Source: Thiothrix fructosivorans (GTDB lineage Bacteria > Pseudomonadota > Gammaproteobacteria > Thiotrichales > Thiotrichaceae). From it: 64,000 nt of DNA. The stretch is from positions 1-64,000 of the forward strand of contig NZ_JAFMPM010000006.1 of the NCBI RefSeq assembly GCF_017349355.1. Direction: 5' to 3'. Shown piece by piece: positions 1-9,004 of the stretch. Every line of letters begins with the position of its first letter. Position 1 is the stretch's first letter. The position numbers were made by a program, and so were the translations under genes. The notes beneath the pieces were generated by a model. It had not been told where the DNA came from and made no database searches. It saw nothing but the letters and a program-made list of their open reading frames with translations.

Positions 1-498
1 CCGGGTGCAACTGGTGCTAACGGCGCGAAAGGCGATACCGGTGCAACTGGTGCAACTGGTGCAACTGGTGCAACTGGTGCAACTGGTGCAACTGGTGCAA
101 CTGGTGCAACTGGTGCAACTGGTGCTAACGGCGCGAAAGGCGATACCGGTGCAACTGGTGCAACTGGTGCTAACGGCGCGAAAGGCGATACCGGTGCAAC
201 TGGTGCAACTGGTGCAACTGGTGCAACTGGTGCTAACGGCGCGAAAGGCGATACCGGTGCAACTGGTGCAACTGGTGCAACTGGTGCAACTGGTGCAACT
301 GGTGCTAACGGCGCGAAAGGCGATACCGGTGCAACTGGTGCAACTGGTGCTAACGGCGCGAAAGGCGATACCGGTGCAACTGGTGCAACTGGTGCAACTG
401 GTGCAACTGGTGCAACTGGTGCAACTGGTGCAACTGGTGCTAACGGCGCGAAAGGCGATACCGGTGCAACTGGTGCAACTGGTGCAACTGGTGCAACT
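1..498 (+). repeat. Minisatellite coding Gly-X-Y triplets (9-bp and 27-bp units)
   Basis: Tandem 9-bp units ggtgcaact are interrupted by seven identical 27-bp units beginning ggtgctaacggcgcgaaagg, at 13, 121, 166, 229, 301, 346 and 436. Between successive 27-bp units there are 9, 2, 4, 5, 2 and 7 copies of the 9-bp unit. Identity at silent positions implies recent expansion or ongoing homogenisation. All unit lengths are multiples of three, so length changes keep the frame. Confidence 0.95.
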
Positions 499-1449
499 GG
501 TGCTAACGGTTCAAATGGTCAAGGCTTCTTTGACTGGTTCAGCCAAACCATTGGTGACTTTGACCGAAGCGGTACTACTGACCAAAACGACGTTCGTGCA
601 TGGTTGAAAGGTGACACTGGTGCAACTGGTGCTACTGGTGCAACTGGTGCAACTGGTGCAACTGGTGCTACTGGTGCTGCTGGTGCTACTGGTGCTACTG
701 GTGCTGCTGGTGCTGCTGGTGCAACTGGTGCAACTGGTGCTACTGGTGCAACTGGTGCTACTGGTGCTACTGGTGCTACTGGTGCTACTGGTGCTGCTGG
801 TGCAACTGGTGCAACTGGTGCAACTGGTGCAACTGGTGCAACTGGTGCAACTGGTGCAACTGGTGGAACAGGTCCACGCGGCCCTGTTACTACTGTCAAT
901 TGTGGCTCCGTTATCGGTGACCCTGTATTCACCGTAAATAGCACAACCAACGGTACTAATAATGGTACGACTAGTTACCAATTGGTAGGTCAAGCTAACG
1001 CGACTTATAACGTTGTTAGTGATCGTGGTTTCCAGCTCAATGCGCAAATGCATCCAACTAATGGCAATTACATGGGTGCTATTGGTGCTAATGTTGGTAC
1101 TCACCAAATCAAGTTCGATAGAAGTGGACAGATGACGCTTGATGGTGTTGTCAAAGCCAATGGTACATACGACTTGGGCAATGGTTCTTCTGTTGTGAAA
1201 AATGGCAGCGAAGTTCGTATTGTAACGTCTGAATATCAGGTCAGATTGCAATCTAATACTGCTGTTGTCAATATCACGAACATCACTAGCCCTAACACTA
1301 ATGCTGATGGCGTTTTGCCAAACGGCTTGTTAGGTGGTGCGATGGACGGGACTCAAGGTGACCATGCAACACAAGCACAGGTTGAACAGTACCGTGTAGC
1401 TGGGTTGTTTGATACCGCTTTCGCAAACAACAACCAATTCAATGACTAA
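1..1449 (+). CDS. Collagen-like Gly-Ala-Thr repeat surface protein (5' end outside window)
   Basis: The frame is open from base 1 and stops at 1447-1449, giving at least 482 residues; the start lies upstream of the window. Codons 1 to about 168 are Gly-X-Y triplets, mostly GAT with seven GANGAKGDT blocks. A non-collagen linker of about 30 residues with FFDWFSQT and [12 protein letters not shown] follows (about 505-603). A second GAT/GAA block runs to a GPRGP cap near 888. The C-terminal domain of about 185 residues is rich in Asn, Thr and Gly and predicted to be beta-rich, with [10 protein letters not shown] and [13 protein letters not shown]. Bacterial collagen-like proteins form surface triple helices, and Thr in the Y position is a glycan acceptor in BclA-type proteins. 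Two glycosyltransferases follow, suggesting glycosylation (inference). A strong terminator follows the gene. Confidence 0.9.
604..870 (+). repeat. Second Gly-Ala-Thr/Ala repeat block with mixed codons
   Basis: Tandem 9-bp units alternate ggtgcaact, ggtgctact and ggtgctgct. They code GAT/GAA triplets only and lack the Asn-Gly-Ala-Lys block of the upstream array. Synonymous variation is higher than in 1-498, so this block appears older or is homogenised separately. Confidence 0.9.
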
Positions 1450-1492
1450 TTGATGAAGTGACCGAGTATCAGCTCGGTCATCAATCAACGTT

Positions 1493-1523
1493 AGAAAGCC
1501 CACCTTTGGTGGGCTTTCTTCTG
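1493..1523 (+). terminator. Rho-independent terminator after the collagen-like gene
   Basis: A perfect 12-bp stem (agaaagcccacc, 1493-1504, pairing with 1508-1519) closes on a three-base loop and is followed by a short T-rich tail. It lies 44 bases after the stop codon and separates this gene from the glycosyltransferases. Confidence 0.9.
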
Positions 1524-1624
1524 TAAGAAAATATTGTATTAAATGTAAACTTAATAGTATAGAAAAAAATATCGTTAATTCATTATCCATACCCTAAGTT
1601 TTATTTTTCCAAGGAAATCCAATA

Positions 1625-6987: not shown

Positions 6988-7024
6988 GCTTGCCCCTCAG
7001 GTAATGCTGACAGTGTACTGAGTT

Positions 7025-7318
7025 TTAATAATAACTGAATAAACCGTCGTCGGCACTTGGTGCAGCGGGGTCTTCATTACATTTGCACACGGTTAATGCC
7101 ACGATGTCCGCCGCCGTATCCAATTGCGCGAACTCTTCTTCGGTATAACGGATACCAAATTCCTCTTCCAACATCAGCAGAATTTCAACCTGCTTGAGGG
7201 AATCCCAGTCGCGGCGACCATTCATCGTCAACCACACACCGTCGCCAGTGGGTAAAGGCTTACCCAACACCGCCACGATCGCTTGCTGGAGGGTTGCCTT
7301 AACTTTATCTGAATCCAT
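7025..7318 (-). CDS. Acyl carrier protein
   Basis: This 97-residue acidic helical protein has the phosphopantetheine site DWDSLKQVEILL at Ser about residue 40, followed by LEEEFGIRYTEEEF, as in four-helix ACPs. The C-terminal tail (KCNEDPAAPSADDG) is unusual. It lies 6 bases after the FkbH-like gene and 37 bases before the MaoC-SDR gene, so it is a dedicated carrier for this operon, not the fatty-acid AcpP, which normally sits in a fab cluster. Confidence 0.9.
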   Translation of the reverse strand: MDSDKVKATLQQAIVAVLGKPLPTGDGVWLTMNGRRDWDSLKQVEILLMLEEEFGIRYTEEEFAQLDTAADIVALTVCKCNEDPAAPSADDGLFSYY

Positions 7319-7324
7319 GTCTTG

Positions 7325-9004
7325 TTATTCCTCAGTTAATTGAACGCTTTGTACAGGCGTAAACTGTTCAAGTTTGTGTTTAGGGATACCGTTCAGCCCT
7401 TCTTGAACGGCATCGGGGGAAACTTCCAAATGCCCTGCCAACCAGCCAACCGCTGGTTGGTTACGCGGGCCATGCTGGACACGAAACGCTACTTGCTCAC
7501 AGGTTTTAAACTGCGGCATATTGCGGATCGTCCACAGTACAATCGTGTCTTCCAATTGACGGCCTAAGGCACGGCAACTGATGCATAGCTCTTCAATCAC
7601 CAGCAAATCACCGTGCCGCTCTGCCACGATCACCGCGATGATACCACTATCTGACAAGCGGTCTTTCAACTGCACGCAAGCCACACAGGCATTGTCATTC
7701 TGGTAGCGTTCGGTAATTTCCGACAAGCTGAAACGACGCATTGCCAAGTTAAACTGGTTGGTTTTTTTACACAAATCAGCCAAACGAGACAAATGTTCTT
7801 GCGGGGAGTGATTGAATACTAGTGCAACCTGTAGATTACGCAAATATTCTTCGGGGTCAGTCACTTCGGTGAGTAAAGATTCGCGCAACGCATTGGCTTT
7901 CATGTCTTGATTACGCTTCACATCATCCGCTGTAACTTTCCAACGCCATAAGCCGGGGTAATATTCCATCGCTCGTTGGGTTAATTCGGCATTTTCATGG
8001 GCATGAATCGCGTGGACTGTTGGCAAATGGCTGGTCACTGCCGCCAATTCGCCGATATTGTCATCCACAAACAGTACCGCATCCGGCGCAATCCGCAAGG
8101 CTTGTGCAACCCGTGCAATCGCGCTGGCTTTGTCACCCCATGACACTTCCGTTGCCGCGAAATCATCCCATTTCAGCGGGAAATCGTCGCGTTGGGCAAA
8201 CAGGTCTTCCACGTCCACACGCTCATTACGCGACACCAGCGCCAAAAAGATGCCTTTCTGTTGCAAGGCTTTGATGGAGGCTTGCAGGGCAATGTGTTGC
8301 GGCGTCAGTTCCACGCCTTGGATGCCATCTTCGCCCAAAATACCTTTGTGCAGGGTATTGTCTAAATCCAGTGCCAAGGCTTTGATCGGTGGCGCAAGTG
8401 CCGCCGGAAACCAATGGCAAGCCAATTTACGCGCTAAAATCGCTTGTGCCGCATTGCTCACGGGCGAACCTGTCGCCACTGCAATACGCATATCCAGCAA
8501 TTCCACACCCGCCTCACGGCACACACTGCCAATGTCCGCAAAGTAAATATCCGGCAAGGTATCAACAATTGCCTGCATCCGCTGACGCTGCTCATCGCTT
8601 AGCAACCATGTGGCTACGATAATCGGTGCTTTCGACATGGAACGCAGTACGCCTAAACGAGTCAACAGCCACTCGCTCCACGACACAAAATCGGTATTTT
8701 CCAAATAACGGCTGCTATCCAGCCACAATAATTCAATATCCGCCTCGGTGTACCCAGCAAACATTAGGGAATCGTCGTAATCCCCAAAGTTGAAAGCCAC
8801 TTGCCAGCGCCCAAACGCAAAATACGGGTTCGCTAAACTCACGATGGATTCTAACGCATGATTGCGCCACACATTCGCTGTTACCACCCGATTTTGGTCT
8901 TCACCAAAATTCAATTGTTGTAATGATAAACGCGTGGGCCGTGCTGTAAACAGGACGGGTTGCCCTTCCATACGCTTGATAGTAGAAGACATTTCAGAAG
9001 ACAT
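7325..9004 (-). CDS. FkbH-like HAD-IIIC phosphatase/acyl-ACP loading protein
   Basis: The central part carries HAD motif I, ALDLDNTLHKGILGEDG, and motif III/IV features (LFVDDNIGELAAV). A C-terminal GNAT-like region of about 200 residues (FNLAMRRFSLSEITERY) is typical of FkbH. An N-terminal SGNH-like segment of about 150 residues precedes the HAD domain. Characterised FkbH-type enzymes dephosphorylate 1,3-bisphosphoglycerate and load glycerate on an ACP; the adjacent ACP fits. The frame extends to a GTG at 9043, but that has no ribosome binding site. The ATG at 9004 has GGAG 9 bases upstream and is preferred. It is first in the five-gene minus-strand operon. The substrate is inferred from the family. 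Confidence 0.85.
   Translation of the reverse strand: MSSEMSSTIKRMEGQPVLFTARPTRLSLQQLNFGEDQNRVVTANVWRNHALESIVSLANPYFAFGRWQVAFNFGDYDDSLMFAGYTEADIELLWLDSSRYLENTDFVSWSEWLLTRLGVLRSMSKAPIIVATWLLSDEQRQRMQAIVDTLPDIYFADIGSVCREAGVELLDMRIAVATGSPVSNAAQAILARKLACHWFPAALAPPIKALALDLDNTLHKGILGEDGIQGVELTPQHIALQASIKALQQKGIFLALVSRNERVDVEDLFAQRDDFPLKWDDFAATEVSWGDKASAIARVAQALRIAPDAVLFVDDNIGELAAVTSHLPTVHAIHAHENAELTQRAMEYYPGLWRWKVTADDVKRNQDMKANALRESLLTEVTDPEEYLRNLQVALVFNHSPQEHLSRLADLCKKTNQFNLAMRRFSLSEITERYQNDNACVACVQLKDRLSDSGIIAVIVAERHGDLLVIEELCISCRALGRQLEDTIVLWTIRNMPQFKTCEQVAFRVQHGPRNQPAVGWLAGHLEVSPDAVQEGLNGIPKHKLEQFTPVQSVQLTEE

Follow-up and report, generated by a model that had tools for sequence, protein, structure and literature searches.

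Collagen-like protein genes with adjoining glycosyltransferases in Thiothrix, their probable link to type III secretion and an accessory FkbH acyl module

The first 64,000 nt of contig C6 of the Thiothrix fructosivorans genome (G000; 4.36 Mb, 8 contigs), referred to here as the window, open within a gene for a collagen-like protein that is followed by two family 2 glycosyltransferase (GT2) genes, GT-A and GT-B, and by an operon encoding an FkbH-type HAD protein, an acyl carrier protein (ACP), a MaoC-SDR fusion and a hexapeptide acyltransferase. The unit of collagen-like gene and glycosyltransferase is real and conserved in this sulfur-oxidising genus; most likely its glycosyltransferase puts sugars on a collagen-like protein that has a link to type III secretion. 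The FkbH operon is an accessory, variable neighbour of it. A preliminary description made from the window sequence had joined all of these genes into one pathway that builds an acyl group and places it on a glycan of the collagen-like protein. Its gene assignments at positions 1-9043 are borne out by the open reading frames (ORFs), the repeats and the Pfam and TIGR families, its interpretation is partly supported, and the type III secretion context lay outside the sequence it used.

From the gene families, their adjacency and distribution and the loss of a tyrosine we infer the enzymatic steps, the glycosyltransferase substrate and the export route of two neighbouring modules: a collagen-like protein that receives O-linked sugars in the cytoplasm and leaves the cell through a type III secretion system (T3SS), and an accessory FkbH acyl module. 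We consider this explanation to be about evenly balanced between right and wrong. Counts for the genus refer to 16 Thiothrix genomes (G000-G015), searches of relatives to 57 genomes and class-wide searches to a sample of 369 genomes.

The collagen-like protein and its candidate glycosyltransferases

The 3' part of the collagen-like gene (1-1449, + strand; Pfam Collagen, 5.6e-39) carries a 9-bp minisatellite at 40-873 within its frame and encodes two runs of triplets (58 and 31 units, GAT for the most part), followed by a C-terminal domain (about 186 aa) whose class also includes VWD-like paralogues. The contig starts inside the gene, which leaves the frame open at base 1. The missing 5' part, with a start codon and a run of 115 triplets, is probably the stretch C8:1-1509 (- strand) of the same genome: from C8:1509 it reads as an N-terminus rich in Ser, Gly, Asn and Thr, then a short LLQ-rich helix and then the 115 triplets, the helix having been chosen in the layout comparison by its L/M/I/Q content, which biases that comparison towards finding one. 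The order MFS, collagen, GT-A, GT-B across C8 and C6 is the same as in G015; the reading frame of the 5' part shifts near the end of C8, possibly through an assembly error. We also note a helix break at window positions 493-618 with an EF-hand-like loop, read by eye, which recurs in the collagens of G005, G028 and G034 and as a variant in G002. Neither this break nor the C-terminal domain has a Pfam match, and the structure model of the latter has a pLDDT of 34.

GT-A (1625-2725, +) combines a GT2 domain (Pfam Glycos_transf_2, 2.6e-15) with C-terminal TPR-like helices, and GT-B (2754-3950, +; Glycos_transf_2, 2.3e-11) is its paralogue with 42% identity, seen adjoining GT-A only in G000 and G015. 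In 14 of the 16 genus genomes the gene directly 3' of collagen is a GT2 gene. In eleven of these (G000, G001, G004, G005, G006, G009 and G011-G015) it is GT-A itself, directly downstream on the same strand, with only the collagen 3' end present on the contig in G000, G011, G012 and G014 and with a broken collagen frame in G001. Another GT2 gene is inserted between collagen and GT-A in G003 and G010, and in G002, where a contig starts with part of the collagen gene, only that other gene comes after it (the GT2 assignments in G010 and G002 being by Pfam). As to the remaining two genomes, collagen and GT-A lie 2.7 kb apart on opposite strands in G008, and G007 has weak collagen matches and no GT-A match above 32 bits. 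Among the 57 relatives, 20 have strong GT-A matches (>280 bits), and ORFs were called in 20 GT-A neighbourhoods from 19 genomes besides G000.

The nearest solved relatives of GT-A are GmaR (4.9e-10) and SunS (1.2e-7), which modify a protein or a peptide; flagellin is the substrate of GmaR. The sequence similarity covers the GT2 domain, and the substrates differ from the one considered here. In a Foldseek search with a GT-A model (4-sequence input, mean pLDDT 65), SunS and ThuS are the best matches by E-value (SunS 1.3e-7) at low TM-scores of 0.26-0.30, followed by TPR domains, including that of O-GlcNAc transferase, and by GmaR. GT-A is a probable protein O-glycosyltransferase.

The closest parallel that we know is found in Clostridioides difficile. 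There SgtA, a protein of 358 aa with glycosyltransferase and TPR domains, is encoded beside bclA3 and transfers GlcNAc onto Thr of the collagen repeats (PMC7157674). The window likewise encodes a GT2 enzyme of about 360 aa with C-terminal TPR helices, adjacent to the gene for a collagen-like protein with many Thr-containing triplets. The two cases differ in that BclA3 is a spore-coat protein of a Gram-positive organism, whereas Thiothrix is Gram-negative and without spores, its system has a T3SS context and is known from genes alone; the window moreover has two glycosyltransferase paralogues, and some species have the FkbH operon. Because the adjacency is conserved, the nearest solved relatives are protein or peptide glycosyltransferases and the SgtA-BclA3 parallel is a proven case, the GT2 enzymes probably act on the neighbouring collagen-like protein. 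The glycan proposed in the preliminary description thus gains support from these three lines, and the FkbH operon may serve it.

If the collagen-like protein bore an acylated sugar at the cell surface, it would also resemble BclA of Bacillus, which carries an anthrose-type acylated sugar. No BclA-type sugar-synthesis and acyl genes were seen by eye among the ORFs of window positions 1-14000, the rest of the genome not having been searched. In the first of our two modules, the collagen-like protein would be a fibrous surface or extracellular protein. While it is still in the cytoplasm GT-A, with GT-B, would glycosylate it, the Thr residues of its G-A-T triplets being the probable acceptors, and it would then leave the cell by the non-flagellar T3SS of the genome and not by Sec.

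Probable association with a non-flagellar type III secretion system

The window genome has a non-flagellar T3SS, with SctQ, R, T, N, D and J above cut-offs and SctU below, in the neighbourhood of an SctV identified by Pfam. SctV (the FHIPEP profile, which also detects flagellar FlhA) is present in 15 of the 16 genus genomes, and the remaining one, G007, lacks GT-A as well. Within family f1 (36 genomes), FHIPEP was found in 19/19 GT-A carriers as against 8/17 non-carriers (Fisher p 0.00026, in a test that ignores relatedness).

Adjacency could be judged in 24 genomes, 15 of the genus and nine outside it, and the collagen gene lies inside or beside the T3SS locus in seven of them, belonging to three genera. 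It abuts T3SS genes in 3/15 genus genomes (G002, G003 and G010) and lies upstream of SctQ in 4/9 genomes outside the genus (G022, G023, G028 and G034); at the T3SS loci of the other five (G016, G017, G019, G030 and G033, with short contigs in G016 and G033) it was not seen. The neighbouring T3SS genes are, by NCBIfam, SctV in G010, SctR and SctN in G002, SctR in G022, G023 and G028, and SctR, SctQ and SctV in G034, and those of G003 were assigned by likeness. Across the genera the collagen gene occupies two different places of the T3SS locus.

Transglutaminase-family proteins are encoded upstream of SctQ in G000, G010, G015, G019 and, as two copies, G017, and all six of these proteins that were tested match Pfam TGL (7e-24 to 2e-17). 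The protein of the window genome, encoded in the T3SS locus on contig C8 (stretch L201:6197-7219, -), is like Bacillus Tgl in its TGL match and in a Cys that aligns with the Tgl Cys, which we take to be catalytic, and differs from it in being encoded upstream of SctQ. We built an HMM from the N-termini of seven collagens and used it to score 15 target N-termini together with a background of 1452 ORFs (from overlapping loci and including duplicates) and 300 shuffles. Seven of the 15 targets outranked the first unrelated ORF (0.43; best shuffle 3.5): a paralogue (4.3e-7), a transglutaminase of G017 (1.4e-5), a second paralogue (1.3e-4), the collagen of G023 (0.0023), the transglutaminase of G019 (0.029), the collagen of G010 (0.13) and the transglutaminase of G000 (0.17). 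Five further targets fell in the noise (2.4 to 6.8, including two transglutaminases at 3.6) and three, one transglutaminase and two paralogues, were unreported. Since only some targets outrank the unrelated ORF, the profile suggests an N-terminal signal common to collagens and T3SS-locus transglutaminases for some members and not for all.

By BLAST the C-terminal domains fall into classes, the largest of which unites nine genus collagens with the four T3SS-locus collagens of other genera. One paralogue of the class to which the window collagen belongs matches VWD weakly (0.0012, below cut-off). As a separate observation, proteins in which TGT/TPT or GNT linkers stand between a collagen-like N-terminus and a VWD-like C-terminal domain bearing GDPHF occur at L107:3833-9419 (G017), L105 and L106, with four such paralogues in tandem in G017.

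Several observations weigh against a collagen-like protein that is glycosylated by GT-A and exported by the T3SS. A distance of 389 kb separates collagen from SctV in the window genome, and no adjacency was found in 12 of the 15 SctV-bearing genus genomes: for G000 and G015 the loci were read, in G001, G004, G005, G006, G008, G009 and G013 the coordinates place the two hundreds of kb apart, and in the remaining three (G011, G012 and G014) the two lie on different contigs, whose breaks may hide an adjacency. By its C-terminal class the window collagen groups with paralogues of G006, G008 and G017 and apart from the T3SS-locus collagens, and the N-terminal likeness between collagens and transglutaminases is weak for the transglutaminase of the window genome (E 0.17). 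The disregard of relatedness in the Fisher test belongs here too, as do G016, in which GT-A and SctV are present while Pfam detects no collagen, and G040, with GT-A but no SctV match in a genome 62% complete. Outside the genus no collagen adjoins GT-A in the stretches read (L082-L088), the exception being a 39% GT-A relative 3.5 kb from a short collagen-like frame in G028. The glycosyltransferase half of the GT-A model is poor (pLDDT <50 at 86-173), and the Sec signal that we did not see in the N-terminus of the collagen-like protein was looked for by eye only.

Alternatively, the collagen-like protein might leave the cell through a type I system or along some unknown path, with its T3SS neighbourhood in some genomes being coincidental. 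The twelve genomes without adjacency, as far as their contigs show, would fit such a scenario, as would a weak EF-hand match in the C-terminal domain of the G010 collagen (0.008, below cut-off), EF-hand features being known from some type I substrates; but coincidence accords poorly with adjacency in three genera and at two different places of the locus, and with the joint absence of SctV and GT-A from G007. We regard another route as possible, though as the minority explanation. A search of the literature, which here and below was confined to open-licence sources, returned nothing related on collagen-like proteins, type III secretion and harpin.

The FkbH operon as an accessory acyl module

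The operon consists of the FkbH-type HAD protein (7325-9043, -; TIGR01686, 6.4e-81, with 272 bits against a curated cut-off of 146.65; an ATG at 9001 is also possible), a dedicated ACP with a DSL motif (7025-7318, -), the MaoC-SDR fusion (5806-6987, -) and a hexapeptide acyltransferase, probably the last step (5102-5785, -), the last three assigned by family profiles, with gaps of 6, 37 and 20 bases between the genes. It converges with the collagen and glycosyltransferase genes on the + strand, and we therefore rejected a single operon for both halves.

By its family FkbH is a probable glyceryl-ACP-forming enzyme, and the formation of a glycerate-derived acyl-ACP by the FkbH/ACP pair, as the preliminary description proposed, fits the FkbH family as portrayed in PMC7489565. 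The glyceryl-ACP systems treated there (tetronates, methoxymalonyl-ACP) likewise pair FkbH with a stand-alone ACP; the window differs from them in that no polyketide synthase adjoins in the part read and in that MaoC-SDR and the hexapeptide acyltransferase replace dehydrogenases or FabH. In all nine genomes with a full-length FkbH the ACP gene is adjacent and the ACP retains the Ser of DSL. The MaoC motif is SGDDNRLH in eight of the nine copies and TGDDNRLH in G005, keeping throughout the Asp and His that we presume to be catalytic. In the SDR half, an alignment with FabG shows Ser and Lys kept and the FabG-type catalytic Tyr replaced by Phe300 in 9/9 copies. In the earlier proposal of a hydroxyacyl group made by a hydratase-reductase, the reductase is accordingly doubtful, and the proposal is weakened.

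As dehydration is the simplest step for a fusion whose SDR half lacks its Tyr, MaoC would dehydrate the glyceryl-ACP to an enol or pyruvyl form, and the hexapeptide enzyme would then transfer the acyl group to a sugar. A route to lactyl-ACP by dehydration and ketoreduction, an idea that comes from polyketide loading modules, was considered and is weakened by the missing Tyr; no paper on a lactyl-ACP route of this kind was found in the open-licence literature.

FkbH matches occur in 13 of the 57 relatives: nine are nearly full-length (at least 83%) and all in the genus, and four comprise the FkbH domain only at 28-32% identity, one of them in the genus (G008). Full-length FkbH is thus present in 9/16 genus genomes and missing in 7/16. 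The closest named records are T. lacustris (92%), T. caldifontis (90%) and Candidatus T. singaporensis (84%). All nine carriers share the order collagen, glycosyltransferase, DUF2288, rhodanese (missing in G005), hexapeptide-MaoC-SDR-ACP-FkbH, DTD and PIP. All seven FkbH-less genomes keep PIP and DTD without the operon between them; the rhodanese gene directly follows DTD in G002, G007, G010, G013 and G014, is separated from it by other genes in G003 and gave no match in G008. Collagen was found at the PIP-DTD place in none of the seven, and since the operon is missing there too, the two change together. In a rooted rpoB tree eight carriers are united and the ninth, G005, is sister to the FkbH-less G013, a topology from which the joint change would amount to one or two events.

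It is at this point that the single pathway, in which the acyl group made by the FkbH operon ends up on the collagen glycan, can be weighed. The comparison of gene neighbourhoods that the preliminary description had suggested yields the operon beside the collagen-glycosyltransferase unit in all nine carriers and, as just described, its joint change with collagen; but this co-occurrence reflects one or two origins only, six FkbH-less genomes (G002, G003, G008, G010, G013 and G014) retain collagen and a GT2, the two halves are separate convergent transcription units, and no sugar-donor gene adjoins the operon. We rejected one conserved pathway as the default, given the seven genus genomes without full-length FkbH and the lack of the operon at their PIP-DTD place, and consider a single pathway rather unlikely.

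Alternatively, the operon might decorate another surface polysaccharide or glycan, its neighbourhood with collagen and glycosyltransferase being due to chance. In the class sample FkbH reaches 1e-60 or better in two genomes besides G000, and the MaoC-SDR fusion reaches 1e-75 or better in one, G156 (scoring at most five candidates per genome, so that further fusions were possibly missed); plasmids gave no MaoC-SDR match at 1e-60. In G156 (C1:1372000-1391500) the fusion adjoins its own FkbH and ACP, as in the window, and the locus also carries genes like NeuB, NeuC and a CMP-sugar synthase. It differs from the window in its 37% MaoC-SDR identity, a retained SDR Tyr, its gene order and the nonulosonic-acid genes beside it. 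The FkbH-ACP pair of Duganella (FkbH 53%) is accompanied by genes for a sugar aminotransferase, a GNAT and a glyoxalase-like protein, that of G357 stands with a GNAT, and that of G239 (C14:20000-38000) stands with glyoxalase-like and sugar aminotransferase genes next to the flagellar flgK and flgH. Considered for themselves, the G156 locus is possibly an acyl modification of a nonulosonic acid and the G239 locus likely a flagellar glycan island with an acyl module. Such relatives in surface-sugar and flagellar-region loci (Duganella, G239, G156) favour a different glycan as the target, and ACP-fed hexapeptide enzymes of O-antigens exist; on the other side, no FkbH operon was found away from the collagen-glycosyltransferase unit in the nine carriers. 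To our mind this possibility has an even chance. No open-licence paper was found that joins FkbH, O-antigen and ACP, or flagellin, glyceric acid, Campylobacter and ACP.

The FkbH operon, then, is a real acyl module and an optional one. That it acylates a glycan is plausible, and that this glycan is the collagen glycan is possible. In our two-module explanation it would be a variable accessory, with the collagen glycan among its possible targets.

Neighbouring genes and other observations

Between the two halves lie a DUF2288 gene (4018-4317, +), a conserved neighbour, and a gene for a rhodanese-like protein with a leader-like N-terminus (4323-5075, -), both assigned by Pfam; the latter is probably not part of the system. 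A low-GC stretch adjoining the system encodes a protein with AAA-ATPase_like and PD-(D/E)XK nuclease domains (12365-13921, -; Pfam). On contig C5 of the same genome, a repetitive Gly-Met-Ser/Asn protein of 317 aa (L012:2833-3786, -), read as collagen by Pfam, adjoins what by eye are molybdopterin-oxidoreductase-like genes, and a protein with collagen-like stretches (L011:1592-2578, -) lies amid genes that look phage-like by eye.

Concluding remarks

Our findings lead us to speculate further, on a reading that we think unlikely as a whole, that filamentous sulfur bacteria build an extracellular collagen by means of the non-flagellar T3SS. GmaR/SgtA-like enzymes would O-glycosylate the protein in the cytoplasm, the T3SS would export it, and the transglutaminase of the same T3SS locus would cross-link it outside. 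In some species the FkbH operon would supply its glycan with a glycerate-derived acyl group, and C-terminal heads would be exchanged between species. The FkbH-ACP-acyltransferase set is a compact module whose product is measurable in vitro. If the larger proposal is true, collagen O-glycosylation, type III export and transglutaminase cross-linking, three known processes, would be united in one testable hypothesis, the Thiothrix T3SS would gain a candidate cargo, and type III secretion, beyond injection and flagella, would serve free-living filamentous bacteria in assembling a matrix of glycosylated and possibly cross-linked collagen.

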